A DNA stretch of 11,160 bases from Lentisphaeria bacterium (GTDB lineage Bacteria; Verrucomicrobiota; Lentisphaeria; Victivallales; GWF2-50-93). The notes under the pieces are model-generated. The model was not told where the DNA came from. It saw only the letters and a program-made list of their open reading frames with translations, and did not search any database. Positions 1 through 11,160 of the stretch are shown in pieces (the first letter of the stretch is position 1; the number at the start of each line of letters is the position of its first letter). The translations under genes and the position numbers were made by a program. The stretch is from contig JAGVIF010000214.1 of the NCBI GenBank assembly GCA_020056205.1, positions 1 to 11,160 on the forward strand, written 5' to 3'.

Positions 1-6
1 TGCTTT

Positions 7-104
7 AGGTTGAAAATTGCATTTTTAATGGAGGGCCACGCTTGCCGTGGCCGCCCTTACGGTCGCGGCAAGCGCGACCCTCCACAATTTTCACAATTCA
101 ACCT
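7..104. repeat. ~98-bp imperfect palindromic repeat (REP/MITE-like)
   Basis: The core at 29-84 is an inverted repeat: TGGAGGGCCACGCTTGCC on the left pairs with the complement of the right arm, which ends in GCGACCCTCCA, with a few mismatches. The flanks continue the symmetry: AGGTTGAAAATTG at 7-19 faces CAATTTT and TTCAACCT at 85-104, with a 7-nt insertion on the right. The transcript would fold into a long GC-rich hairpin. It lies about 125 bp beyond the stop of the transpeptidase-like gene and could act as a downstream terminator or mRNA stabiliser, which is inference. A short open frame through it on the plus strand is a by-product of the repeat. Positions 105-229 show nothing further that I can name. 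Confidence 0.75.
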
Positions 105-229
105 TATAGAGTATAATTGGCTTCCCGGCGGCCACAACGTCTTTTCGCCGACATTATCGAGAGATATTCCTTTCAAAAGGCCAAGATTTCTCGACGCAGT
201 ATAGCATCATCAAAAATGATGTCAAAATA

Positions 230-1108
230 TCATTTATCCTGAAATTTGATCTCGCCGACTTTTGTTTCTATCATTTGATACAATTCTTTTGACCATATAG
301 GAATCTTTGGGTTTAAAAATCGTATCTTCTCAATGTCAATCGAAGCGGTTTTTCTGAAATCATACGGACTGATTATCACTGCGACATTCTGAATCTTTGT
401 TTTTGCGGCAAGAACAAAAATATCCTCGATCGGTTCATCGCCTATGGAAACACAGCCGATTGACGCATTCGAGCCATGTATAAAAATGTCGGAGCCGGGA
501 TAAACGCGATTTTCTTCTTCAGCCTTTTTCCGCTCAAATTCGTTCGGATAATTTATTTTCATGGAAAGATGAAAACGACTGTTTGGATTGAGTTCATCTA
601 TCTTATATATCCCCTCCGGGATTTGCATATCTCCTTCAAGCGTCTTTGGGCCGAGCACGCCGCTTGGAGCAAGAATTGGATATTGCGCAACAAGCGTATA
701 GTTCTTCTCATCGGCGGACGCATATATCTCAACAGTCATTTCCTTTTTAAAACAGAGGATGAGAAGGCGCTTAGGTGGATATTTTATTCCTTTTTTGCTA
801 AAGATGTTTATGAATTTATCATCCACCCTACCTTCATATTTTGCCAGAACACTGCCGACAGTGTCCTCTTTTCTCAGCTTCAGCAAGACGGCGTGCACAA
901 TAGGAATTCTTTTCAGATATGGCTTGCAGAAAAGAATGACAACCGAGACAAAAAACAGAATGGCAAGAGCGAATAGTCTATTGTTGCGATTTCGGATAAA
1001 ACGCAAGATTGGAGTTTTCGATTGGATTTTAGAATTCCTTTTTTCTCTTATTATTTCTCGCGCAAAGGGACAAAGCCACGAAGTCCGTTTCCAATCATGT
1101 CTCCGCAC
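230..1108 (-). CDS. Membrane-anchored L,D-transpeptidase-fold (YkuD, YafK/DpaA-type) protein
   Basis: A 292-aa protein with a basic cytoplasmic N-terminus, one membrane segment at about residues 44-62 (signal anchor), a linker, and a YkuD catalytic domain at about residues 140-250. The active-site motif is IFIHGSNASIGCVSIGD, with His211 and the nucleophile Cys219; an upstream PEGIYKI...LNPNSRFHLSMKINYPNEF block is typical of the YafK branch. YkuD enzymes make or remodel peptidoglycan cross-links and protein-peptidoglycan links outside the membrane; the E. coli YafK homologue (DpaA) releases Braun lipoprotein from murein. The exact reaction here is inference. The start is GTG without a clear ribosome binding site, and the frame stays open upstream, so the first ~35 residues are uncertain. 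It is monocistronic in this window and is the most ordinary housekeeping-like gene present. Confidence 0.88.
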   Translation of the reverse strand: MRRHDWKRTSWLCPFAREIIREKRNSKIQSKTPILRFIRNRNNRLFALAILFFVSVVILFCKPYLKRIPIVHAVLLKLRKEDTVGSVLAKYEGRVDDKFINIFSKKGIKYPPKRLLILCFKKEMTVEIYASADEKNYTLVAQYPILAPSGVLGPKTLEGDMQIPEGIYKIDELNPNSRFHLSMKINYPNEFERKKAEEENRVYPGSDIFIHGSNASIGCVSIGDEPIEDIFVLAAKTKIQNVAVIISPYDFRKTASIDIEKIRFLNPKIPIWSKELYQMIETKVGEIKFQDK

Positions 1109-1209
1109 TTGACATATCGTGCTGATCCCGTAGCGCCGAAGCCATTTCAGATGTGCAAAGGCGGGTAATCCTGTCAGAATATTTCCCGGATTTCTTTGTG
1201 CCAGAGTTT

Positions 1210-1237
1210 ATCCCGATTCTCGGATAGACATCGGGAT
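1210..1237. repeat. Short ATCCCGAT/ATCGGGAT hairpin repeat
   Basis: ATCCCGAT (1210-1217) and ATCGGGAT (1230-1237) form a perfect 8-bp stem with a 12-nt loop. A related 'ccccgatgccctttcgggatc' stretch occurs near 11062-11082. It lies in the spacer between the two leftmost genes and looks like one of the dispersed intergenic hairpins of this genome. No promoter function is visible. Confidence 0.5.
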
Positions 1238-1276
1238 GCCTCCGTGAGATAATATTTCTTGGATTCTAACGATAAA

Positions 1277-1318
1277 AGTGAGCTGCCACTGGCTGCGCCA
1301 GCGGGTAGCGGTTAGCTC
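1277..1318 (-). terminator. Possible intrinsic terminator after the three-helix membrane protein gene
   Basis: Read on the minus strand, GAGCT...CTGGC-GCA-GCCAG...AGCTC forms a bulged GC-rich stem (core CTGGC/GCCAG at 1289-1301) followed by ACTTTTATC. It starts about 22 bp after the stop at 1340. The U-run is short and the stem has mismatches, so this is only a candidate. Confidence 0.35.
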
Positions 1319-1339
1319 CACTGCATTGATAGCTTCTGC

Positions 1340-1639
1340 TCATCCTCCGATAACCATAAACAAAACCAAGGTGATTATAAGCGCGACCGTAGCGTAGGCA
1401 ACTCGGAAAGGCTGGGAAGTGAACACTCCGAAATCAAGCCCACGCCGTGCACGATGCCGGAGCCGAAGCGCCAAAATTGCGAACAACAACACACACCACA
1501 AGCATACCGACATCATGACTCTCACAAACGCTTCGCCGCCCGGTAGCACCGTGACGGCGGAACACATGAGCAACCCCAAGAAGAAGATGACCGACAGATA
1601 CCACGAAATGAAAATCGGATTCGTCAACTTGGCAGTCAT
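1340..1639 (-). CDS. Small three-helix membrane protein, unknown function
   Basis: A 99-aa hydrophobic protein with three predicted membrane segments at about residues 10-30, 38-60 and 78-97. A short Arg-rich loop (RLRHRARRG, about 59-67) would sit on the cytoplasmic side. The start is supported by GAGG five bases upstream of the ATG. I do not recognise a family. An overlapping plus-strand frame (1419-1700) is Arg/Ser-rich and reads as a shadow. The gene stands alone between a REP cluster upstream and a hairpin downstream. Confidence 0.6.
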   Translation of the reverse strand: MTAKLTNPIFISWYLSVIFFLGLLMCSAVTVLPGGEAFVRVMMSVCLWCVLLFAILALRLRHRARRGLDFGVFTSQPFRVAYATVALIITLVLFMVIGG

Positions 1640-1669
1640 GGTTGCCTCATCAAGCTACCGATTGGCTCA

Positions 1670-1885
1670 CCGACCGGCTGATGCCGGTTCGGAGAGGTGA
1701 TTTTGTTATCAATATTTTTGATCATTTTCCTGAAGTCGCGCAAGCCTTCGGCTTGCTGGCAATGTTCCATGTTGTAGCGCAAGCCTCTGGCTTGCAGGCG
1801 GTTTCCGAAGTAGCGCAAGCCTCCGGCTTGCATAGCGCTTTCAATCCGGAGGATTGAGCTACTTCCAATCACAAGCCGGAGGCTT
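1670..1885. repeat. Cluster of REP-like palindromes (AAGCCTCCGGCTT family)
   Basis: Three near-identical direct units GCGCAAGCCTCCGGCTTGC start at 1738, 1777 and 1813; the first two carry TTCGG and TCTGG in the centre. A fourth unit in inverted orientation (CAAGCCGGAGGCTT) lies at 1872-1885. Between them is TCAATCC-GGA-GGATTGA (1841-1857), a different hairpin, and ACCGGC-TGAT-GCCGGT precedes the cluster near 1674. Each unit is itself a palindrome. Together these fill most of the spacer between the membrane protein gene and the DUF6880 gene. Open frames running through the cluster translate into repeated QAxGLRY-like peptides and are not genes. Confidence 0.85.
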
Positions 1886-1904
1886 ATGCTACTCTTCAAA
1901 ACAT

Positions 1905-1922
1905 ACAGGCAAGGATGCCTGT
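1905..1922. repeat. ACAGGCA-AGGA-TGCCTGT hairpin
   Basis: A perfect 7-bp stem with a 4-nt loop, followed on the plus strand by TTTTAC. A partial copy (ATAACAGGCATTTTG) follows near 1935-1949. The plus strand has no gene to terminate here, so I read it as another dispersed hairpin. It could still slow transcription leaving the DUF6880 gene on the minus strand. Confidence 0.5.
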
Positions 1923-1998
1923 TTTACTCTTGATAACAGGCATTTTGCTCTGACTTTAGACTGTCCCCCCTGAAATTGTCAAACGGGCAACACTCCTA

Positions 1999-2107
1999 GT
2001 AAATATTCACCGAACCCTGCGAGCCGAGTCGCAGCCCTGAGCTTGCCTGTGGTGAGCTTGTCGAACCAGTCGAAGGGCGAAGACTGGTCCTTTCGGTGAA
2101 TATTTAC
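1999..2107. mobile_element. 109-bp MITE-like element with 16-bp terminal inverted repeats
   Basis: The ends are GTAAATATTCACCGAA (1999-2014) and its exact complement (2092-2107). The interior is GC-rich and includes the widely scattered 'gagcttgtcgaa...tcgaagggcg' sequence. No transposase is encoded, and the length and perfect termini fit a non-autonomous element or a large REP hairpin. It lies 17 bp past the DUF6880 stop codon, so it could act as that gene's terminator. No target-site duplication is obvious. Its GTA-starting ends loosely resemble those of the element at 5876-5972 (10 of 16 positions). Confidence 0.7.
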
Positions 2108-2124
2108 CGACGGATTTCATCGGC

Positions 2125-3507
2125 TCAAGTTTCGTATTTTGCCCAAAGAGCAGACTTGAGCCGGTGTATTTTTCGCAACTCTTCCTTGTGGGCATCATGT
2201 GTCGGAAAATTTCTCCAATCGGCAATTTTCACGGCAAGACCATCGAGCTTTTTCAGGTATCTCACCGCATAAACGTAGTGCTTGGATTGCGCCCTCTTGA
2301 GGATGGAATCTATCAGCGCCCTGTGAATCAAAGAAGCGGCGAGAAATCTGTTTTCGGCCTCGAATTTCTTGGAGAGTTCCAGCAAGGGCATATAGTTGTC
2401 GCCGTTGAGTTGATCCGTTCTTCCGACAAGATATTCTTCGGCCTCGTCCGTCTTTCCATTTTCAAGCAAAAAATCAGCGTCCGTTAGAGAAAGGTTGTCA
2501 CTCTTTATTGTCAGAGCTGTCTCATCCTCAATAATCTTGCCTCGTTCTGATTTGCCGACAGATTCCAGCAATTCTTTAAGATTGTCTGCCGATCTGTGCC
2601 GCCTGAAGGAGTTCAGCGCGATTTCATGCATCTTTTCCTTGTCGCCATTTTTTTTATATATCGAGAGTAGGAGTTTATCGCGATCATAGTCCGTATAATT
2701 TTCTGTTTTTGGAATTTTATTCAGCCAGTCCAATGCGGCAGCACAATCACCGGCATTAAAGTAGGCCTCCGCTATTTCCAGATGAGTTTTGCATGGAACC
2801 CCTTCAAAGTCTTCGCAGGATTTTAAAGAAGCCTTTTCGAACATGACTGGATCGTCAAGCTGTTTGGCAAGATTTTTCACCCCAAGCGCCCAATGCCTTG
2901 ACTCGCTATTATCTTTGGCTTCATTTATTTTTCCCATAAACAGTTCGGCAAGTTTTCTGAGTTCTCCCGGTGGAAGGAATTTCGCTGACTGTTTGAGCAG
3001 ATATTCCCTTAAACTGTAGGCATCTTCCTCATAGAGATCGGCGAGAATTTCCGAAATCCACTTCTTGTCCTCGCATTTTGACGCTAATTCCGCGAAGAGG
3101 TCGCTTGCGGAAAAGCGAAACACATCGCCAATAATCCCGTCCGAATCATCGCAATATTCGATAATGGCCTTGTCGCTTTTGAAGAATTCAACGAGAAGGG
3201 TGATGCCGTCGTTCGGATTTTCGGAGCCATTCCGGGTTTCAGCAAGGATTTCGTCGAGTTTGTGGCAGAAGAGCTTAGAACTTTTCCAGTCAACAAAACG
3301 CTTTTGCCGGCGCAGTCCCAATATTTTCGCTTTGGCGCGTTTGAAATTATCTTTTTTGCTTGAAATCAGCCGGGTGATAATGGCATCTGCGTCATCGTGT
3401 CGGATTGACAGTTCCATCAACGCTTCGACCAAGTCTTCCACCGCTACTTTCGCAAGCTTTGCGCGAATTTCGCTGTCTGAATTTATAAATTCCAACTGCT
3501 TGCTCAT
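2125..3507 (-). CDS. DUF6880 family helical-repeat protein
   Basis: A 460-aa soluble, almost wholly alpha-helical protein with no signal peptide. It matches the DUF6880 pattern as I remember it: an N-terminal block EDLVEALMELS, then RRQKRFVDWKSSKLF (about 66-80), then EYCDDSDGIIGDVF (about 117-130), later TPR-like helical pairs (about 220-430), and a terminal basic segment HRLKSALWAKYE. Members often carry an N-terminal SWIM zinc finger or sit beside one; none is present here. The function of the family is unknown; helical repeats suggest protein binding. The ATG lies 4 bp after the stop of the 48-codon ORF at 3512-3658, and the ribosome site is weak, so translational coupling is plausible. 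It ends beside a MITE-like palindrome. Confidence 0.82.
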   Translation of the reverse strand: MSKQLEFINSDSEIRAKLAKVAVEDLVEALMELSIRHDDADAIITRLISSKKDNFKRAKAKILGLRRQKRFVDWKSSKLFCHKLDEILAETRNGSENPNDGITLLVEFFKSDKAIIEYCDDSDGIIGDVFRFSASDLFAELASKCEDKKWISEILADLYEEDAYSLREYLLKQSAKFLPPGELRKLAELFMGKINEAKDNSESRHWALGVKNLAKQLDDPVMFEKASLKSCEDFEGVPCKTHLEIAEAYFNAGDCAAALDWLNKIPKTENYTDYDRDKLLLSIYKKNGDKEKMHEIALNSFRRHRSADNLKELLESVGKSERGKIIEDETALTIKSDNLSLTDADFLLENGKTDEAEEYLVGRTDQLNGDNYMPLLELSKKFEAENRFLAASLIHRALIDSILKRAQSKHYVYAVRYLKKLDGLAVKIADWRNFPTHDAHKEELRKIHRLKSALWAKYET

Positions 3508-3511
3508 GGGT

Positions 3512-3658
3512 TCACTTTTTTCTTATTACATCGAAATCCTGCCCCTTGGGCATTATGAAAAGACACTTGCCCTTGCTCCTCTTCTCCCAAAGCTCGCCGA
3601 GCTTGAAAAATTCCTCAAGCCGGTCAAGTGCATCGCTCTGGCAGGTTTTTAAAATCAT
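3512..3658 (-). CDS. 48-aa ORF, duplicated C-terminal tail fragment
   Basis: The product contains LGELWEKRSKGKCLFIMPKG followed by QDFDVIRKK. A near-identical stretch is encoded at 5487-5585, and coding-level conservation in both copies argues that the peptide was once a real protein end. From memory it resembles the C-terminal tails of some type III restriction (Res)/DEAD-box helicases, but I cannot verify this. AAGGAG lies 14 bases before the ATG, which is too far for efficient initiation. It sits directly upstream of the DUF6880 gene (4-bp gap) and directly downstream of an ORF6N remnant. Most likely it is a gene remnant; it may still serve as a leader ORF for the next gene. Confidence 0.45.
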   Translation of the reverse strand: MILKTCQSDALDRLEEFFKLGELWEKRSKGKCLFIMPKGQDFDVIRKK

Positions 3659-3679
3659 ACTTTTACAGATGTCTCCTTT

Positions 3680-3787
3680 TTATGAAGTGTGCTTGAACTC
3701 GGAGGAACATATCACAAATTGTGATATGTTCCGTATTTCCTCGCGTGTCAGCGCAAACATGAAATCCGAAGGAAATCTTTTAATAAG
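3680..3787 (-). pseudogene. ORF6N domain remnant (central part only)
   Basis: The minus strand reads LIKRFPSDFMFALTREEIRN and continues ISQIVICSSEFKHTS before a TAA at 3680-3682. This matches the middle of the ORF6N domain, the region that normally follows 'LKQAVKRN' and precedes 'AFTEQGVAMLSS'. The N-terminal IRGQKVLLD part and everything after the centre are missing; upstream the frame meets a stop near 3806. ORF6N proteins are DNA-binding-type domains known from phages and often found beside restriction-modification genes. The missing N-terminal region is exactly what a second remnant at 5635-5890 retains. Confidence 0.8.
3704..3732. repeat. Perfect 29-bp palindrome (14-bp arms, 1-nt centre)
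   Basis: GGAACATATCACAA (3704-3717), a single A, then its exact complement (3719-3732). It lies inside the ORF6N remnant, over codons for RNISQIVICS, and 46 bp upstream of the ATG of the 48-codon ORF. Arms this long and perfect are not expected by chance in 11 kb. It could be an operator or cruciform, or a by-product of the coding sequence. Confidence 0.9.
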
Positions 3788-3871
3788 GAGAAATAAATAA
3801 CAAGGTTATTGCTATTATCATTGTTGGGAGTTCTTGGCTTCAGAATATTGATTTTGACGATACATACCAAA

Positions 3872-4822
3872 TCAAGAAGAGCTTTTCTCCCAATCTAATA
3901 GACGATATCGAGTGGCGAGACGAACACGCCCAACTTTGGTAACATGCAACGTGAATATTGCTTTTTTACCAAGCAGGATACCCATCTCTTTGAATTTATC
4001 TTCGGACATATCAGGATCGATCTTTCCATAAAAAACTTCGTTGCCATCTTCAGGCGTTATTTCGAAGGTTCGTTTTGCTGGAAGAAAAAAAAGATATCCC
4101 GTTGCTTTTATATCGGCTTCAATTATGTTGTCATCTGCGAGCCTTTCTGCCGCAGTTTGAACGCTTTCAACATTCTTAAATTCAGTTACCTGATCGTCGC
4201 ATCGCATTTTAAAATAAGCATTGCTCTTCCCAACGGTTTCAAGAAAATCCCTGATTGCTGAAATAGTCCGTCTATCAACTTGTGAAGCTACTTCCACCAG
4301 CTTTTCATCGTCCTCATTGGCGCAAGCGAATATTATGGCTTTAGTTTGTTCGACAGCTTTACTTGTCAAGGATTTTTCGTCAAAAATCAATTCTGGTTCA
4401 ATACCAGATTCGGTTTTTCTAACGGAAATTTCCTCGAGAATAAAGCCAAAAGAACCAAGTGCGCGATCAGTAACAAAGAGCTTGTTGAACTCCCTGCCGG
4501 GTATACGGCCATCTAACCGGACTTCTTGACTCATTGACGCGGCTGCCAATGCAATGGCTTTGTCATATTTTTCTAATGCGTTACCAGCAAATTGAGCTTC
4601 AACTCCTTGTGTTCCCTGGACAGGTGCTCCGCGAAAAGTCAATTCTACCCTTGCACGTTGAATGCCATCAACAGGAATGGAATCACACTGTTTTTCAAGA
4701 TCGGAGATCCTGGACTCAATGCCCAATCGCGCTAAAGGAGAAGTCTTTTCTATGTCTGAAAGCATTTTTCGAAGTTGTGACAATTCAGCAGCGATAGCAG
4801 AGCGTTTCATATTTTGTGTCAC
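3872..4822 (-). CDS. Coiled-coil partner of the DUF6932 nucleotidyltransferase, unknown function
   Basis: A 316-aa soluble protein. Residues about 5-48 form a heptad-rich coiled coil; residues 61-80 hold a conserved-looking block LTFRGAPVQGTQGVEAQFAG; GSFGFILEE follows at about 123-131; an acidic helical region fills about 150-235; and the last ~80 residues are strand-rich and end in TRYRLLDWEK. I recall similar proteins next to DUF6932 genes in other bacteria but know no assigned function. The start is GTG at 4822: a perfect AGGAGG lies six bases upstream and the GTGA overlaps the stop of the upstream gene by 4 nt. The ATG five codons in is too far from that site. It would be co-translated with the nucleotidyltransferase, so a complex or toxin-antitoxin relationship is plausible but inferred. 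Confidence 0.75.
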   Translation of the reverse strand: MTQNMKRSAIAAELSQLRKMLSDIEKTSPLARLGIESRISDLEKQCDSIPVDGIQRARVELTFRGAPVQGTQGVEAQFAGNALEKYDKAIALAAASMSQEVRLDGRIPGREFNKLFVTDRALGSFGFILEEISVRKTESGIEPELIFDEKSLTSKAVEQTKAIIFACANEDDEKLVEVASQVDRRTISAIRDFLETVGKSNAYFKMRCDDQVTEFKNVESVQTAAERLADDNIIEADIKATGYLFFLPAKRTFEITPEDGNEVFYGKIDPDMSEDKFKEMGILLGKKAIFTLHVTKVGRVRLATRYRLLDWEKSSS

Positions 4823-5382
4823 AAAACACCTCCTGATTTAGCAATTAAAAATTCCCCTGCATCCGTGTCTTCATCCGGAGCCAAGCTAATTTCGACAAAT
4901 CCCTTCCATTCAAATGTGTCTCGTCTATGAGCCAAGAGACTATACCAGTAAGCTGTTTGTTGGACCAAAAACTTGGTTGGTTTTTCAAGAAGAACAGCAT
5001 ATGCGTCGACTGAATATTTTTCCTTGGTATCACTTGGTTTAAACAATTCTCCATGATGAGATACAAAATCTTGTTCATTCATTCCAACGGGAAGTTGGAA
5101 AAAAGAAACGACATCAATATCCCTCGGAGAGCGTTGATCAAGAAGCTCAATATTTTCAAGGAAGCTACCATTTATCCACTGAAATCCAATTGTAACACCA
5201 GAGGCATGCAATGCGGTGCGATATTTGAGAAACCCATCTAAGATACTGCGTCGCTCGGGGGACGTAGAAAATCGCGATATCGCATCAATTAGGCGGACCT
5301 GATACGGGGAGCGCGCCGCATCCGTTGGCGTGTCCATAAAAGGAGGCACTATTCCCCGGTGATTAAAGGTTGGTATTTCCAT
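4819..5382 (-). CDS. DUF6932-type nucleotidyltransferase (MNT-like)
   Basis: A 187-aa protein starting MEIPTFNHRGIVPPF, the opening I associate with DUF6932. The nucleotidyltransferase signature is visible: NGSF (Gly72-Ser73), then RDIDVVSF with Asp88 and Asp90 as the metal-binding DxD pair, and a likely third carboxylate at Asp126 in YSVDAYAV. Members of this fold transfer nucleotides to proteins, RNA or small molecules; the substrate here is unknown. The frame extends seven codons further upstream, but I chose ATG 5382: AGGA lies four bases before it and the -10 box at 5406-5411 would put the transcript start inside those seven codons. The downstream partner overlaps by 4 nt. Small nucleotidyltransferases of this kind serve as toxins or antitoxins in MNT/HEPN and AbiE systems. 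Confidence 0.8.
   Translation of the reverse strand: MEIPTFNHRGIVPPFMDTPTDAARSPYQVRLIDAISRFSTSPERRSILDGFLKYRTALHASGVTIGFQWINGSFLENIELLDQRSPRDIDVVSFFQLPVGMNEQDFVSHHGELFKPSDTKEKYSVDAYAVLLEKPTKFLVQQTAYWYSLLAHRRDTFEWKGFVEISLAPDEDTDAGEFLIAKSGGVL
4829..4834 (-). promoter_or_regulatory. Perfect Shine-Dalgarno AGGAGG for the partner gene
   Basis: AGGAGG on the minus strand, six bases before the GTG at 4822 and inside the last codons of the nucleotidyltransferase gene. It decides the GTG start and suggests the partner is translated at least as strongly as the upstream gene. Confidence 0.85.
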
Positions 5383-5405
5383 AAGTTCCTCAGTTATGAA
5401 CATTT

Positions 5406-5433
5406 ACTATACCGACATTTTTACGTAAAGCAA
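5406..5433 (-). promoter_or_regulatory. Sigma70-like promoter for the DUF6932 cassette
   Basis: On the minus strand TTGCTT (-35, 5428-5433), a 16-nt spacer and TATAGT (-10, 5406-5411). The transcript should begin near 5398, giving a ~16-nt leader before the ATG at 5382 that contains TGAGGA. This gives the cassette its own transcription. Confidence 0.55.
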
Positions 5434-5486
5434 AAACATAAGTATTCCAATTCTTGAAAAAGCCTGAGATGGATTGATGAGTATCA

Positions 5487-5638
5487 TCATTGTTTCACTC
5501 TTTCCCTTATTGCCTCGAAATCTTTCCCTTTGGGCATTATGAAAAGGCATTTGCCCTTGCTTCGTTTTTCCCAAAGCTCGCCCAACTGACGTTTTTCATG
5601 GTTATCCGGCAAATTTCCCTGACGAGTTCCCAAGTCAT
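5487..5638 (-). pseudogene. Second copy of the LGELWEKRSKGKC tail fragment, frameshifted
   Basis: The last 31 codons read LGELWEKRSKGKCLFIMPKG then KDFEAIRERVKQ, nearly the same as the tail at 3512-3658. An ATG at 5636-5638 overlaps the stop of the ORF6N remnant (ATGA) and opens a short frame, MTWELVREICRITMKN, that runs into the tail region in a different reading frame. One reading is that a longer gene which followed ORF6N lost its interior and kept its first and last codons. The long frame that runs in from further upstream at 5690 is not a real N-terminus, because it is an alternative frame of ORF6N sequence. What the parent gene encoded (possibly a restriction/helicase subunit) is unverified. 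Confidence 0.55.
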
Positions 5639-5890
5639 ATTTTTGTAAGTTTTCTTGCTTTTGCGCGATACTCGAACTTCTTTTCTTCAACGTGAAAACC
5701 GATCTTTTTCTTTGGTTGAACGGGCGGTGTCATTATTTGCCTGATTGCATCAAAGACAATGCTGAACTGTTCATCGTATTTCTTTTGACAGCCTGTTTCA
5801 GAACTTTTGTCTCCACTCCGTATAAAACAGCGAGATTCCGATCAAGCAAGACTTTCTGCCCCCTGATGAACAGGAGTACAAGTTCAGTAA
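5635..5890 (-). pseudogene. ORF6N domain gene with internal deletion
   Basis: Minus strand, first frame: [20 protein letters not shown] and then [12 protein letters not shown], the N-terminal half of the ORF6N domain (about 5778-5870). A shift at 5778-5784 leads into another frame: [36 protein letters not shown], ending YRAKARKLTKI and a stop at 5635-5637. This second part is the usual ORF6N-protein C-terminus. The centre of the domain and the middle of the protein, roughly 100 codons or more, are missing, joined through an AAAAGAAA stretch. The N-terminal end runs into the MITE-like element at 5876, so normal first codons are lost too. The gene is dead but recognisable. Confidence 0.85.
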
Positions 5891-5972
5891 AACCTGTCTG
5901 CCTGCGCATTGCTTGACTGCGAGCGCTGTCACTCAGGTAGGTACACAGACAGATATTTTACTGAACTTGTAC
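5876..5972. mobile_element. 97-bp MITE-like element with GTACAAGTTCAGTAAAA ends
   Basis: Both ends carry GTACAAGTTCAGTAAAA (5876-5892; complement at 5956-5972) and the symmetry continues with CTGTCTG inside, after a 2-nt insertion. The interior is about 45 bp and has no ORF. It abuts the truncated start of the ORF6N gene on one side, and its other end supplies the last four codons and the TAA stop of the membrane protein gene at 5958. A degenerate single end occurs at 11000-11016. No clear target duplication is visible. The absence of a transposase suggests a non-autonomous element mobilised in trans, or a large REP. Confidence 0.75.
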
Positions 5973-6410
5973 GTTGCAACGACCATATCTTTCCGCTAAT
6001 AGGGCACAAGCTAACAAAATAACGACACCAGCAATTTCTCCAACGACAGAAATAGCTATCGTTGTTTCATTGATTCCAATCCATGACCCTCTGACAAATC
6101 TCAGGGTAAGCATCGTGCTTTGAAATAGTAATACAACGATAACCGTGCATACGTACGGTCGTCTCAGTCGAGTAAATGCTATAATATATCCAGCAAAAAC
6201 AACAGAGGGAATTCGACATCCAAAGTACGCTAAGTAGAAGCCCATTCCCTGCGTAGAAATAGCATCCCGGGTACTTTCATTGCCAATAATAGACCAGTTG
6301 CCAAAGTGTATAAGCAGAAAAACTCCCAGAGCGCCAAGAATCCACATTGAGACGACGGCAATAGCTATGCCTTGGATGGGACTAAAAATCTTTTTAGCAC
6401 TATTACTCAT
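5958..6410 (-). CDS. Four-helix membrane protein, unknown function
   Basis: A 150-aa protein with four membrane segments at about residues 12-34, 57-80, 86-104 and 116-139 and small polar loops. No motif I recognise. The last four residues (VQVQ) and the stop are encoded by the end of the MITE-like element at 5876-5972, so the original C-terminus may have been altered or lost by insertion. No good Shine-Dalgarno precedes the ATG; the upstream bases are AT-rich (TTTTGTTTA). It may be co-transcribed with nothing, since its neighbours are remnants. Whether it is still a working gene is uncertain. Confidence 0.6.
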   Translation of the reverse strand: MSNSAKKIFSPIQGIAIAVVSMWILGALGVFLLIHFGNWSIIGNESTRDAISTQGMGFYLAYFGCRIPSVVFAGYIIAFTRLRRPYVCTVIVVLLFQSTMLTLRFVRGSWIGINETTIAISVVGEIAGVVILLACALLAERYGRCNVQVQ

Positions 6411-6481
6411 TAAACAAAATAACGTCTGATATCAGCCGCCTACCGCTTTCTTTCCTATCCAGTTTAATGTCGGCATGATTA

Positions 6482-6764
6482 CTAATTCCCTGTTTTCTTC
6501 TCGCTCTCCAAGTGTTTTTCCCCTGCCATCTTCCTGCCTTTTTCCGTCAGCCGGTACTTCTGCAGACGGCTGTTGGGCTTGCCGGGGATGGTATATTCCA
6601 AAAGACCGGCATCCCGCATGCAGGCAGGGCTTTACGGAGATTGCCGCTCAATTGATATTACTTCTGTGCAAGATAACGAGGAACCCGCTTTTTATTGGCT
6701 GGAATTCGACTTTCATCCCAGCTTTACGGCAGGCATCGTAAATGCGACGGGGTAAATGCCTGTC
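6482..6764 (-). pseudogene. C-terminal remnant of an AlbA_2-type ATP-binding regulator
   Basis: Minus strand, first frame: RRIYDACRKAGMKVEFQPIK then SGFLVILHR before a stop (about 6653-6764). A second frame further on: RDAGLLEYTIPGKPNSRLQK then YRLTEKGRKMAGEKHLESEK, ending at TAG 6482-6484. These match the C-terminal region of putative transcriptional regulators with an N-terminal AlbA_2 (Schlafen-type) domain, in which a GHKL-like part ending 'IYDACRKAG...F...GGFMV' is followed by a winged helix ending 'PDKPxSRLQKYRLTxKG'. The middle is deleted, a frameshift lies near 6620, and the N-terminal 300 or so residues are absent. Such genes commonly accompany restriction-modification loci. Confidence 0.8.
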
Positions 6765-6906
6765 GCCTTAGAGATTCCTTCACCGTTCTTCTCTTCTCTG
6801 TTATTGGATAATGTATTTTTGTGATACAAAAGTTACGTCTGGAGTTACTTCCGCACCCTAAAAGTACAGCTTGAATAACTGCCACTTGAGCCCATAATTT
6901 CGGACA

Positions 6907-7785
6907 TTATTTAACACCTTCCATCGCCTTATTGATCCGTTCAAGCGCCTTATCCAGATCGAAATTCTCGCGTTCAACTGGGGATAAAACATCAAATAGT
7001 TCGGCTTCGATACGAGAACGCATATCGTCAATCTCAGTGCTTTTACGCCCCATATTGACACGATATTTTGCTAAATCCAAATCCCCGCCATCCTCCTCTA
7101 TTTTCTTCTTAAAAAGGCTGATAACCTCTTTATCCGCAAGGTTAAATTTGTTGCGGAACAGAAAATATAGATCGTAAAAATCACGAGGAGCAATAATTTC
7201 TCTGAGAGCCGCGGCGCGGAGTTTCTCACTCACGATTTCATTGAGCGACAGACAAGCAACCTTGCCCCCATCAAAAAGAGGCTCTCCGGTAAACGGATGC
7301 GTATACGTATGATGAACCTGCTGTTTTTCTATCTTGTCAATGGGATTAAATCTTAAGCCGATTTCGAACTTAATTTGTCCTTCGATCGGACGCAGGGCAG
7401 ATTGATACGAAAAATAATACACATATTGCTTCGATTCGTTTCTCCCGGGATTCCCGGCATCAAGAATTTTCATATCAAATTGTTGCGCAAACTTTGCTAT
7501 TTTATCCTTCACGGGTTGTATACACTTTCTTCGCTCTCCTCGAGTCGCCTCGTATTGCGGTAGCTTCATGCTAAAATCAAGATCCTCGCTCAAACGATAA
7601 TATGCGTAATGAATCTTATTCAGACAGGTACCGCCCTTAAAAACAAGATCTTCGGCAAGCTCATGCGTTTGGGAAAGGATCAGGGTTAAATAGTAATCTT
7701 TCTCTAAAAGAGGAAGCAGAAATCCTTTTTTCTTTGCCGCCCGTTCCAAGGTCTTTACAAATTCATCTCTATTTTTGTGAATCAT
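6907..7785 (-). CDS. abiEii: AbiEii-family nucleotidyltransferase toxin
   Basis: A 292-aa protein with the AbiEii/AbiGii signature. FKGGTCLNK (about 49-57) and RLSEDLDFSM (about 64-73, Asp68 and Asp70) form the nucleotide-binding and metal-binding core; QIKFEIGL (about 137-144) probably holds the third carboxylate region; LNEIVSEKLRAAALREIIAP then RDFYDLYFLF (about 181-210) carries the conserved Lys188 and RDxxDL motif. Studied AbiEii-type toxins are nucleotidyltransferases that block growth, for example by adding nucleotides to tRNA acceptor ends; the substrate here is unknown. All motifs are intact, so it should be active. It overlaps the antitoxin gene by 17 nt, as is usual in these pairs. 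GGAGAG lies about ten bases before the ATG. Confidence 0.93.
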   Translation of the reverse strand: MIHKNRDEFVKTLERAAKKKGFLLPLLEKDYYLTLILSQTHELAEDLVFKGGTCLNKIHYAYYRLSEDLDFSMKLPQYEATRGERRKCIQPVKDKIAKFAQQFDMKILDAGNPGRNESKQYVYYFSYQSALRPIEGQIKFEIGLRFNPIDKIEKQQVHHTYTHPFTGEPLFDGGKVACLSLNEIVSEKLRAAALREIIAPRDFYDLYFLFRNKFNLADKEVISLFKKKIEEDGGDLDLAKYRVNMGRKSTEIDDMRSRIEAELFDVLSPVERENFDLDKALERINKAMEGVK

Positions 7786-8569
7786 TGATAATAACTCTCC
7801 ATTTCTTATTGAGTGTGCCTTTGCGCGATCCAGTAAAGGTGCTGACAGCGGTTTTCTTAACGCTGTTGATAAGGGGCTTTAACGCAGCGTCCGTAAGGTT
7901 CGATCCATCAAGAACCAACCCGATACGCTTCCTTGTTTTTATAATTGGAAATCGTGCGGCGTATTCCACCAATTTATTAATGTCACATTTCTTTTCCATG
8001 ACAAACTGTCTTAATACCGCTTCGGCGCTTTTGATGCCGCCAACGGGCTTATTAAAATAGATGAGGTCAATCAAAGTACGCTCTTTTGAGCTTATAATGA
8101 CATCGGCATCTTTGGCCTTGATAACCTCTAATCCGTAGAAACGATTCTCCGGAATCCTTATAAATTTATACGAAATGCCACAAATTATTTTCTCCTTCCG
8201 GATAGCGGTATTAAGAACGTAAACAGTCTGAAAAAGTTGTTCAGTAAATCCGTAGTAATTAAACAACGTTGAATAGCCAACGTAATAATTCTTTTTAGGG
8301 AAAAAGAGCGGCGGGATAAGAAGCTCATCAATACCAGTCCCATCCGGACCTGCCTCGAGCGGTGAGAACGCATATGTGCCGCGTTTAATGGGAGTAAGTA
8401 TTTTCTTTTTCTTGAGACGAAAAACAAGCTGTTTCCTATCAACAGGAGAAAGATTAAACAGACGATCGAGGTATTCAACTGTAACAATCGTCTTCTTCTC
8501 GTATGTCAGACGAGCAACAATATTAGTCTCAATTGGCCCCAAAGTTTTTGATGTATTATTAGATGTCAT
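7769..8569 (-). CDS. abiEi: AbiEi-family antitoxin / transcriptional autoregulator
   Basis: A 266-aa protein with an N-terminal winged helix-turn-helix (about residues 12-68, with VEYLDRLFNLSPVDRKQLVF and KRGTYAFSP) and a C-terminal antitoxin domain, including YYVGYSTLFNYYGFTEQ (about 95-111) and SSKERTLIDLIYF (about 155-168), as in the AbiEi_4 group. In type IV systems the antitoxin does not bind the toxin stably; the winged helix represses the operon by binding inverted repeats at its promoter. A fitting promoter and imperfect inverted repeat lie directly upstream. The start ATG has only a weak ribosome site. The gene is immediately upstream of, and overlaps, the toxin gene. Confidence 0.92.
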   Translation of the reverse strand: MTSNNTSKTLGPIETNIVARLTYEKKTIVTVEYLDRLFNLSPVDRKQLVFRLKKKKILTPIKRGTYAFSPLEAGPDGTGIDELLIPPLFFPKKNYYVGYSTLFNYYGFTEQLFQTVYVLNTAIRKEKIICGISYKFIRIPENRFYGLEVIKAKDADVIISSKERTLIDLIYFNKPVGGIKSAEAVLRQFVMEKKCDINKLVEYAARFPIIKTRKRIGLVLDGSNLTDAALKPLINSVKKTAVSTFTGSRKGTLNKKWRVIINDSQK

Positions 8570-8587
8570 AGGTTATCTTCAACATAA

Positions 8588-8614
8588 CTTACATGCCCTT
8601 TTTATACATGTTAA
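8588..8614 (-). promoter_or_regulatory. Candidate AbiEi operator (imperfect inverted repeat)
   Basis: On the minus strand TTAACATG (8607-8614) and CATGTAAG (8588-8595) face each other across 11 nt, matching at 6 of 8 positions. A CATGTA direct repeat is also present. The position, overlapping the -10 edge and transcript start, is where AbiEi-type autorepression would act. Function is inferred. Confidence 0.4.
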
Positions 8615-8641
8615 GTCTATCACACATTTTCCCCGTGTCAA
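8614..8641 (-). promoter_or_regulatory. Sigma70-like promoter of the abiE operon
   Basis: On the minus strand a consensus TTGACA (8636-8641), a 16-nt spacer and TAGACT (8614-8619). Transcription would begin near 8607, about 38 nt before the antitoxin ATG. The promoter lies between the end of the asparagine-synthase-like gene and abiEi, so the toxin-antitoxin operon is independent. Confidence 0.6.
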
Positions 8642-8657
8642 TAAGAATATTTACAAT

Positions 8658-10502
8658 TCAACTTTGCGTCAGGAATGTCCCGATAGTTACTATAGTCTGG
8701 ACAAGGTCGCCGCTGATTCCGGGAACTTTTTCTCCGTTCAACCAGCGGGGAAATTCCTCCCTGATTTTTCCTATGTCGAGGAAACTAATTTGCTCCAGAG
8801 TATTTGAGTTTATAATTTCGAGAGCTGCATTTTTTAATGACGGATAATTTTGCAGGGCGAACTCGCGGGACGGCCACGTGCGCTCTGTCCATTCCTCCCA
8901 GTCTTTTTGTCCGAGAATTCTTCGTTTCAGCGCGCCTGCGATTTGATAGATAGTCTGTTCCATGCTCGATGCTGTGACGGGCAGGCCGGTGTTCGCGCTT
9001 GGGATTTTCGCAAGTTTAGGGTCAAGCATTTTCAGCGTCTCCTTCTCGATTCTCCCATTGAACCGCTGTTCCGCAGGAAGGGCGAGATATAAATCAAAAA
9101 TCTCATTGGTGAATGATGCGATTCTCGCTTCAGAGAATGTTTTTATGGACATTGCGTTCGGATAACTGTAATGCCTTGAAATGTGATGAAAAGTGAAATA
9201 CTCCCACAGATCATATTTGTTGTCCGTAAGTTCTTGTCCGCGCCGGTAAATCTCGTTTATGCTTTCGCGCTGAAATTCCTCCAGATTTTTTCGTTCATCG
9301 TTCTTGACAAATTTCCATATATCGGCGCCTTTTATCCGGTATGAAGCGTTGTTGATAAAATATGAGACAAGATCATCGGGAGGCTCGCTCATAAATCGCA
9401 GATAAAGATTTCTGCTCCCGAATTTCACGGTTTTTGCCGGGATATACATTCCTTGAAACATAAAATCGAAACCGTATCCGTTGAAGCAGGTGTCCGCGTG
9501 TTTTATTACTTCATCATTGTATCCGAGAAAAAGCGCGTGGTCGTAATTGAACATTCCTCCGCATACTTTTACGGCGGTCTCACGAATCACCCCGTAATGC
9601 TCCGGATGAAGCTGAAAATAGAGATGTTTCGCCCCTTTTGTCTCGGCGATTTTTCTTGCCGTGCGAACTTCGCGGTTATCGGATATCCCAACCGTAAAAC
9701 AGGTCGGGAGTTGTTCATCGAAAGCCGCAAGCACGGAACGCGAATCCATCCCGCCGCTGAGAAAATGGCCATAGCGTTTGCCGTCGCTGGTCTTGAGTTT
9801 TACGGACTGCCTTAGAAAATCCGCAAGCATAGCGGCATTGCACAAGAGAGGATTATTATTTTTCGTGTAGTTTCTTTGCCAATAACGCGCAATCTTGCTT
9901 TCCCCGTCCTTTACTTCGAGAATTTGCGCGTCCGGCAGGAAAAATACTCCCCGCGCAAGCGTTTTCGTCCCGAATATCCGCTGAAAAAATAAGAACTCAA
10001 AAAAAGCCTCTTGGTTTATCTCTAAAAGGCTCTTGATTTTCAAGAATTTCCACAGCGAAGAAAAATGAGGGCTTGCGCAGAAAAGCCTTTTTTCCTTGGA
10101 CTGAAAATAATGTAACGGGACAGCCGTGAATCTGTCGTTGATGATTTTCAGCGTCCCGTCGGTTTTTCCAAAATAAATCGCAAGAAACTCTCCATCAACA
10201 AGTTCGAGCGCTGTTTTTTCTGAAAAATCATCAAGAAACGCTTTCGCGGTTCTTTCAGCGTCAACTTTTATGTCGTCATAGATTGGAGAGCCAAGAATGA
10301 CAACGGCCGCGTTGTTATCTTCCTTAATTGTTGGCGCGGGGAATATCCCGGAAAATTCAATGCTCAAGGTTTTCCCATGAGCCGTGAATTCAACTTTTTT
10401 CACATCCGCCGGCCCAGTCGTTTTGCGAATTTCGCAAAAGCGGTCATCAGACAAGACCAGCAAAAAATGCGGAATAGAGAATTTATTTGCGAATTTGATC
10501 AT
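8658..10502 (-). CDS. Asparagine-synthase-like ATP-dependent amide ligase, no glutaminase cysteine
   Basis: A 614-aa protein with the two-domain layout of the AsnB family. The N-terminal half (about 1-200) keeps the Ntn-like fold (DGEFLAIYF and INDRFTAVPLHYF) but starts MIKFANKF, not Met-Cys-Gly, so it cannot use the usual N-terminal cysteine to release ammonia from glutamine. The C-terminal half has a PP-loop ATP pyrophosphatase motif, FLSGGMDSRS (SGGMDS at 249-254). The later block that is normally GEGSDELFxGY reads NGYGFDFMFQG (341-351), losing the acidic residues. It is therefore probably not a housekeeping asparagine synthetase; such divergent proteins occur in surface-polysaccharide and peptide-modification clusters. 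AGGA lies five bases before the ATG. No pathway partner is visible in the window. Confidence 0.85.
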   Translation of the reverse strand: MIKFANKFSIPHFLLVLSDDRFCEIRKTTGPADVKKVEFTAHGKTLSIEFSGIFPAPTIKEDNNAAVVILGSPIYDDIKVDAERTAKAFLDDFSEKTALELVDGEFLAIYFGKTDGTLKIINDRFTAVPLHYFQSKEKRLFCASPHFSSLWKFLKIKSLLEINQEAFFEFLFFQRIFGTKTLARGVFFLPDAQILEVKDGESKIARYWQRNYTKNNNPLLCNAAMLADFLRQSVKLKTSDGKRYGHFLSGGMDSRSVLAAFDEQLPTCFTVGISDNREVRTARKIAETKGAKHLYFQLHPEHYGVIRETAVKVCGGMFNYDHALFLGYNDEVIKHADTCFNGYGFDFMFQGMYIPAKTVKFGSRNLYLRFMSEPPDDLVSYFINNASYRIKGADIWKFVKNDERKNLEEFQRESINEIYRRGQELTDNKYDLWEYFTFHHISRHYSYPNAMSIKTFSEARIASFTNEIFDLYLALPAEQRFNGRIEKETLKMLDPKLAKIPSANTGLPVTASSMEQTIYQIAGALKRRILGQKDWEEWTERTWPSREFALQNYPSLKNAALEIINSNTLEQISFLDIGKIREEFPRWLNGEKVPGISGDLVQTIVTIGTFLTQS

Positions 10503-10689
10503 TAGTGTCCTTGTTTTACGGTTCTATGTTTTAAGCGTATGGGAAAGCAAAATTGGTGGTTCAGGAAGTCAGCGTCCTACTGCGAGTTTCGCAGATTTAT
10601 CAATAAGAAACTGCCAAGAAAGAGACACGCTAAAGCTGTGAACTCCAACGGCAGTTTCAAAGGAGGATTTCCGATTTCTAATTTCTTTC

Positions 10690-10730
10690 GCCGCAGAGAC
10701 GCGGAGACATAAGAGACACAAGGGACATAT
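10690..10730. repeat. GCCGCAGAGACGCGGAGAC dispersed-repeat remnant
   Basis: The sequence GCCGCAGAGACGCGGAGAC followed by 'ataagagacacaaggg' repeats GAGAC three times. Very similar stretches are scattered through many environmental genomes; here it appears once. Confidence 0.45.
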
Positions 10731-10800
10731 TATTTTTTGATTTGGTGATTTAGAGATCTTATGATTTTAAAAACTTTCGCGCTTCCGAACTCTTAGTATT

Positions 10801-10860
10801 TGGTGATTTTAAGATTTGGAGATTTTTCAATCCTTCAATCTCCCAATCATCCAATCACCA
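10801..10860. repeat. 60-bp imperfect inverted repeat with 24-bp arms
   Basis: The left arm begins TGGTGATTTTAAGATT (10801-10824) and the right arm ends ATCATCCAATCACCA (10837-10860); the arms match at 20 of 24 positions around a 12-nt loop. A further half-copy, TTTGGTGATTTAGAGA, lies at about 10742. This is an AT-rich, satellite-like intergenic repeat. Confidence 0.7.
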
Positions 10861-10923
10861 GATTCTACATTCTGGCTACTGTCTCCTGAATGTTGACACA
10901 CTGACACTTTTTACTTCCGGCTA

Positions 10924-10939
10924 TTCCGCCTTGGCGGAA
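10924..10939. repeat. TTCCGCC-TT-GGCGGAA hairpin
   Basis: A perfect 7-bp GC-rich inverted repeat. No gene ends beside it within the window, so it may be an isolated repeat, or a terminator for a gene beyond the edge. Confidence 0.45.
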
Positions 10940-10999
10940 AATATCATTCGTTCAAATAAGCTGTTATATAGTTTTTGTGGAGATGTCTTGAAAGCCAGG

Positions 11000-11016
11000 T
11001 TTTGCTGAACTTATAC
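11000..11016. repeat. Degenerate single end of the 5876-5972 MITE family
   Basis: TTTTGCTGAACTTATAC matches the element end TTTTACTGAACTTGTAC at 15 of 17 positions. No partner end is found nearby, so it is a solo or decayed copy. Confidence 0.5.
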
Positions 11017-11093
11017 ATGGAGAATCCGCCCTTTCAGGGAGGCATCCGCGGCGGCACAACTGCCCCGATGCCCTTTCGGGATCTGGAAGTAGC

Positions 11094-11110
11094 ATAAGCC
11101 TCCGGCTTGT
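11094..11110. repeat. Distant REP unit of the AAGCCTCCGGCTT family
   Basis: ATAAGCCTCCGGCTTGT shares its core with the four units at 1738-1885 and also the flanking 'gaagtagc' seen before the third unit. This shows the family is dispersed and not a local tandem array. Confidence 0.75.
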
Positions 11111-11160
11111 GATTTGATGGATTCAAAAATAAATAGAAGCCAAAAATTTTGAATTCCACA

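Follow-up and report, generated by a model that had tools for sequence, protein, structure and literature searches.

A Conserved Two-Gene DUF6932 Nucleotidyltransferase Module beside Phage Repressors and among Restriction Genes: A Candidate Anti-Phage Effector

Introduction

In the HEPN/MNT and AbiE/MenAT systems, a small nucleotidyltransferase (NT) carrying a GS...DxD signature is encoded together with an overlapping partner gene. A pair of the same layout is the subject of this study; it lies on the minus strand of an 11,160-nucleotide stretch of DNA, hereafter the window, from a Lentisphaeria bacterium (assembly GCA_020056205.1, contig JAGVIF010000214.1, positions 1 to 11,160) and consists of an NT gene (4819..5382) and a partner gene (3872..4822). 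It differs from both of those systems in that the NT belongs to the DUF6932 family, not to AbiEii, and in that the partner has neither a conserved HEPN motif nor an AbiEi profile. An earlier note on this DNA had read the pair as one functional unit, possibly an undescribed toxin-antitoxin or defence system, with its own promoter; the two-gene module is confirmed and its interpretation partly supported, while the promoter and the wholly undescribed status are not supported.

Two further systems offer instructive parallels. PrrC is an anticodon nuclease that stands guard inside type I restriction operons and serves as a second line when restriction fails; the present module resembles it in being placed among hsd genes, which suggests a backup role when restriction fails, and differs from it in comprising two genes and an NT instead of an anticodon nuclease. 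The RexAB pair of phage lambda includes a membrane-spanning protein, RexB. According to PMC11077077, RexA binds DNA non-specifically and Rex-like pairs exclude other phages. In 35 of 63 unique viral-contig pairs the two genes of the module occupy the position that rexAB has in lambda, next to a repressor of the CI type and on its strand; they differ from RexAB in encoding an NT enzyme, and the window pair differs in the lack of any sign of a membrane segment, since the mean hydropathy over 19 residues peaks at 0.94 in the partner and 0.81 in the NT. RexA is not among the matches listed in the comparison with folds of the Protein Data Bank (PDB), a result that excludes nothing.

The closest catalogued relatives are candidate systems in PADLOC. 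The window NT matches the PDC-M63A model (E 1.4e-10), and of the 70 partners compared, the window's included, seven match the best of the PDC-M63B models (best E 2.2e-6); the window partner itself has no PDC-M63B match at E 1, so that the window does not amount to a complete A-plus-B system, and its sole PADLOC match is to PDC-M38B (E 0.0073). Seven of the 70 partners match a model of another candidate, PDC-M32A (best E 7.5e-8), as does the divergent partner of locus L007 (E 4e-6), whereas the window partner does not. PDC-M63AB is described as two genes found in a prophage (PMC12409345) and PDC-M32 as known from prophages (PMC12429752). The system is thus not wholly undescribed as a candidate, as PADLOC lists its distant relatives as PDC-M63A and PDC-M63B; PDC-M63 is not known to have a demonstrated function. 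DUF6932 is named in no paper of the open-access literature searched, and a limited look through the same literature found no report of such a pair embedded in restriction or BREX operons. What is new here is the genomic company of the pair, namely a slot beside repressors and a place within restriction or BREX operons.

Pairing across Genomes

The pair is a conserved, mobile two-gene module. On viral contigs, 67 loci were detected with an alignment of NTs as query, and in all 67 the partner lies directly downstream on the same strand, although at one of them (L074) it is split over two frames; the reciprocal scan with the partner found the NT in 42 of 42 loci, with many contigs common to both sets. 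An NT-only alignment scan of cellular genomes found the partner downstream in 79 of 80 loci, and at the remaining one (L150) the contig ends 126 bases past the NT; since the best 80 of the 264 relatives detected were retained, this set is biased towards close NTs. On plasmids, the NT is present in all four records with the partner, and the partner in four of the six records with the NT. Of the other two, one is a short fragment and one is Rhizobium plasmid L006, where a transposase-like open reading frame (ORF) occupies the partner's place and tblastn, which found the partner in two control loci, detected no remnant of it; a match on a Pigmentibacter plasmid covers 18% of the NT. Viral-contig scans with single proteins as query gave nothing useful, and neither did tblastn searches of an annotated phage collection, for which the queries were the window NT and partner, an NT from a viral contig and the partner of L007.

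Removing redundancy by the last 150 NT residues reduced 185 pairs to 140 unique ones (63 on viral contigs, 73 cellular and four on plasmids). Two cellular loci were left out of this count, L150 for want of partner sequence and L187 as a duplicate of L181, while five more (L154, L162, L182, L186 and L189) are identical to pairs from viral contigs and were assigned to that group, which leaves the cellular set short of prophage copies. The commonest spacing between the two genes is a four-base overlap (68 of the 140 unique pairs). Conservation and folding were assessed on alignments of 65 pairs plus the window (66 rows), extended with plasmid rows to 69 plus the window (70 rows); the L064 partner is cut by a contig end, and that of L047/L074 runs in two frames. 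Across 66 rows, the NT and partner distance matrices are concordant (Mantel r 0.79, none of 999 permutations as high). No natural fusion of the two was seen among the ORFs searched.

The pair is thus obligate or nearly so, and the earlier proposal of a single unit is supported in that the two genes are conserved together. Among the 80 cellular genomes, 13 named phyla of bacteria and one of archaea are represented (Pseudomonadota 41 of 80; no named phylum 5 of 80), as judged by record titles, many of the records being metagenome bins. Within groups the distribution is patchy; in the family to which a Citrobacter (G201) belongs, 3 of 198 genomes carry the module, G201 itself counted, and DNA similar to the Citrobacter copy occurs in 34 of 5426 Escherichia coli genomes, eight of them matching over most of the copy.

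The Nucleotidyltransferase and Its Partner

The NT matches PF22014 (DUF6932) at E 7.9e-31, with 107.8 bits against a Pfam cut-off of 27, and matches phrog_9194, a family of unassigned function, at E 1.9e-33; the profile search against NCBIfam found nothing, and a sequence search of solved structures gave no match at E 0.001 (best E 0.013). Its first-ATG ORF spans 4819-5403 on the minus strand and encodes 194 residues in an intact frame. The ATG at 5382, which gives 187 residues beginning MEIPTFNHRG, is nevertheless the better start because relatives begin near M-x-IP-x-FN (I10 in 47 and P11 in 60 of 66 aligned rows), in keeping with the start chosen earlier.

The predicted structure (AlphaFold2, mean pLDDT 95.8) accompanies an intact catalytic signature. 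In 194-residue numbering, the first catalytic motif, NGSF, occupies residues 78-81 (N78-G79-S80-F81; 5161..5172, minus strand), with G79 and S80 in 66/66 rows; it is followed by R94-D95-I96-D97, which includes the metal-binding motif DID (5113..5121, minus strand), D95 and D97 being present in 66/66 rows, and by a third aspartate, D133 (5005..5007, minus strand), which is Asp in 65/66 rows and Glu in the other. The NT thereby carries the elements of a Pol-beta-like nucleotidyltransferase, GS...DxD and a third acidic residue, and G[ST]...DxD is kept in 140/140 unique NT genes from other loci. The earlier assignment to DUF6932 with an intact site is upheld, and the conservation of these residues argues for a working nucleotidyltransferase. 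Loss of partner adjacency or of catalytic residues elsewhere would have spoken against the unit proposed in the earlier note, and neither was seen; a metabolic role for the pair did not turn up in the searches made.

The partner, a protein of 316 residues with a GTG start, has no Pfam family above cut-off and matches phrog_18731, again of unassigned function, at E 6.1e-46; its best match in the sequence search of solved structures has an E of 0.04, with none at E 0.001. The AlphaFold2 model (mean pLDDT 93.1) comprises an N-terminal helical hairpin, a central alpha/beta part and a C-terminal OB-like domain. The hairpin (residues 1-54; 4661..4822, minus strand) is formed by helices H3-23 and H29-48; the coiled coil described earlier is predicted to be this hairpin, one part of a multi-domain protein. 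Beyond it stands the conserved block FRGAPVQGTQGVEAQFAG (residues 63-80; 4583..4636, minus strand), in which F63 is kept in 63, G65 in 66, P67 in 60, V68 in 60 and F78 in 65 of 66 rows; its residues 64-80, RGAPVQGTQGVEAQFAG, confirm the GxxVxGxxGVEAQFAG-type block noticed before. A GSFGF motif follows at residues 123-127 (4442..4456, minus strand; G123, S124 and G126 in 66/66, F125 in 63/66 and F127 in 62/66 rows). The predicted OB-like domain covers residues 233-316 (3875..4126, minus strand), and through it the partner may resemble a nucleic-acid-binding protein. The 19-residue hydropathy exceeds 1.6 in only two of 66 partner rows and one of 66 NT rows.

In a Foldseek comparison, the partner model resembles that of a DUF6575 phage protein (E 3.6e-11 over a 300-column alignment) and differs from it in overall geometry, with a TM-score of 0.37 and an rmsd of 16.7. 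DUF6575 is not among the Pfam matches listed for the 70 partners (25 of 29 families), and searches for it gave no signal anywhere, either in the window's phylum (145 genomes) or in another family (198 genomes), and are hence uninformative, so that the link comes from Foldseek alone. DUF6575 is named among the domains of experimentally selected defence systems in PMC9519451.

Genomic Company of the Module

The first niche is beside a phage repressor. Thirty-five of the 63 unique viral-contig pairs have a gene of a CI-like repressor cluster upstream and on their own strand, within 400 bp in 24 cases; scanned singly, 33 of these 35 genes contain HTH_3 and 28 contain Peptidase_S24. Three of the 28 pairs outside this group have less than 500 bases of upstream sequence, and at L039 and L103 a reading of the neighbourhood finds a helix-turn-helix-like gene outside the repressor cluster. 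In lambdoid prophages of E. coli (three loci of two lineages), CI-type gene, NT and partner follow one another on one strand, with a Cro-like gene on the opposite strand. On a tree of 139 pairs, a fast tree with its long branches flagged, the CI label requires eight changes, at least seven of them by starred branches. A related order is seen at L199 and L200, in genomes of the Citrobacter family, where an S24 repressor precedes an NT of a short DUF6932 branch (160 residues) and a distant partner, matched by a profile hidden Markov model (HMM) at E 1.6e-4 and 5.7e-5, respectively.

The second niche is within or beside restriction operons. Type I hsdM/hsdS-type genes occur in the fetched stretch of 30 of the 73 unique cellular pairs, no more than three genes upstream in 28 of them, and an hsdR-type gene lies downstream in 23; 16 pairs sit on one strand between hsdM/S (at most three genes upstream) and hsdR (at most three downstream). 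By chance, 0.44 hsdR genes would be expected in the 1.11 Mb concerned against the 23 observed, a rough control calculated from the hsdR density in 96 other genomes, all from the phylum of the window (317 Mb with 125 matches), with a detector that differs from the clusters. These counts are of single-linkage BLAST clusters built on simple longest-ORF calls, and some members of the hsdR cluster are short pieces at contig ends; Pfam scans of four representatives (L113, L117, L170 and L133), one per gene type, bore out HsdM, HsdS, the HsdMS fusion and HsdR. Among hand-picked neighbours, the order at L120 is BrxC, NT, partner, PglX-like methylase and, further on, PglZ and BrxL, while the NT follows a type III mod-res pair at L163 and a type IIG enzyme at L126. 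On the same tree, the label for restriction-modification types, borne by 33 rows, has to change 17 times, with no fewer than 13 of these changes forced by starred branches; the restriction link hence arose repeatedly.

This company, repressors on the one hand and restriction or BREX operons on the other, is strong circumstantial evidence for a role of the module in phage defence, and to that extent the possible defence system of the earlier note gains support.

Several individual loci have further neighbours of note. At L113, L117, L118 and L158, all type I restriction loci, an Abi_C-type gene (PF14355, checked in Pfam at L113 and L117) comes straight after the partner, with a four-base overlap in three of the four. 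At L133, a type I locus, the SIR2-like PADLOC candidate PDC-S65 (8106-9896, E 3.8e-203) lies directly upstream of the NT, and on the Bradyrhizobium plasmid L005 Multiubiquitin/E2 and ThiF/JAB genes adjoin the pair. The ORFs on either side of the pair at L167 share their first 40 residues and are perhaps a repeat or parts of a composite element.

Candidate Function and Alternative Explanations

The explanation that we favour, although we give it a little less than an even chance, is that NT and partner form an obligate two-subunit nucleotidyltransferase acting as a mobile backup effector against phages. The two proteins would be made together by coupled translation and would stay idle in healthy cells, with the partner supplying both nucleic-acid recognition and the sensing of infection through its OB-like domain. 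The viral-contig copies, standing behind a CI-type repressor, would be expressed in the lysogenic state, as RexAB is, whereas the cellular copies, located inside or next to operons for restriction-modification or BREX, would take over, in the manner of PrrC, where these defences fail. Once triggered, the NT would transfer nucleotides onto a target of the host, in all likelihood RNA and perhaps tRNA, and growth would stop before phage release. More tentative is the proposal that the module represents a new class of phage-defence effector, in which an obligate two-subunit NT guards restriction and BREX operons as well as prophage immunity regions, senses infection through a partner with an OB fold and nucleotidylates host RNA. 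If true, one enzyme module would serve both lysogen exclusion and restriction backup, niches usually studied apart; DUF6932 and its unnamed partner family would gain a function, and PADLOC candidate PDC-M63 would be explained.

Two observations weigh against a two-subunit anti-phage effector. In the one published deletion test found (PMC12409345), removal of PDC-M63AB, the candidate that covers distant relatives of the pair, from a prophage of E. coli NILS69 left 10 phages unaffected; and many loci lie in neither niche.

Loci in which the partner is broken bear on the division of labour between the two proteins. The NT is intact at L047/L074, where the partner is frameshifted (one contig), and at L006, where the partner is missing, which suggests that the NT alone is harmless, though two such loci are thin evidence and the frameshift may be a sequencing error. 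An intact NT without an intact partner fits a two-subunit enzyme, or an antitoxin of the MNT kind, better than a free NT toxin. The latter of these possibilities, in which the partner would be a toxin and the NT an antitoxin that modifies it with AMP, as in MNT/HEPN, is unlikely; beyond the small number of broken-partner loci, one of them perhaps a sequencing error, the partner lacks a conserved histidine for the HEPN motif RX4-6H, the best histidine column reaching 47% of 66 rows, and addiction alone leaves the placement in restriction operons unexplained. HEPN/MNT is rejected on the motif; HEPN is not among the fold matches listed for the partner, where an unlisted family is possible.

The reverse assignment, with the NT as a toxin of the AbiE/MenT kind that acts on tRNA or another RNA and is inhibited by the partner, appears slightly more doubtful. 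The catalytic site is conserved, and AbiEii, by its Pfam description, and MenT toxins are nucleotidyltransferases; against this, an unrestrained toxin would not be expected to persist in the two loci that keep the NT without an intact partner, and the NT has no PF08843 match. Type IV systems of the AbiE/MenAT kind are rejected by profile, with neither NT nor partner matching PF08843 or PF09407. Least probable of the alternatives is that the pair has no defence role and is a fitness or nucleic-acid-processing pair of prophages and mobile elements sitting in regions of high gene traffic, a view that draws on the negative deletion test and the loci outside both niches and that has to contend with the 16 same-strand hsdM/S-hsdR placements, the single brxC/pglX-like one and the recurrence on the tree, all of which show a specificity beyond that of a general hot spot.

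The Window Locus and Its Surroundings

The window copy itself belongs to neither niche, being among the 24 tree rows that bear neither the restriction-modification nor the CI label, and it has no repressor upstream, unlike 35 of the 63 viral-contig relatives. The source genome carries a single copy each of NT and partner, and the DUF6932 cut-off is exceeded in two of the 100 genomes searched as relatives, the source genome included.

The signals at the junction of the two genes are as first described, with the NT stop codon running into the partner's GTG as GTGA (4819..4822, minus strand) and a perfect AGGAGG ribosome-binding site six nucleotides before the GTG (4829..4834, minus strand). A promoter of the module's own did not stand up to comparison with shuffled sequence; the interval 3400-6000 contains three sites of the sigma-70 kind, where shuffling predicts 4.3 (sd 2.4), and just one of them precedes the NT, ending 350 bases short of the NT start.

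Farther upstream, 1.5 kb from the NT and on its strand, lies a complete AbiE pair, formed by AbiEi (7769-8569; PF09407, E 1e-9) and AbiEii (6907-7785; PF08843, E 5e-29), both on the minus strand of the window. Directly downstream of the partner is a DUF6880 protein (2125-3507, minus strand; PF21810, E 2.5e-40), which also matches TPR profiles weakly. The AbiE genes, DUF6880 and a window gene of 150 residues had no match among 1679 neighbour genes of 136 other loci, in which a control hsdR query found 24, and the AbiE pair is accordingly rejected as a general companion of the module.

No Rfam family above gathering score and no tRNA were found in the window. The two-gene module is bracketed by 87-nucleotide direct repeats, 83% identical (3517-3603 and 5501-5587), which may mark a duplication or an insertion, and a perfect 17-nucleotide inverted repeat occurs at 5876-5892 and 5956-5972, with a gap of 63 nucleotides.
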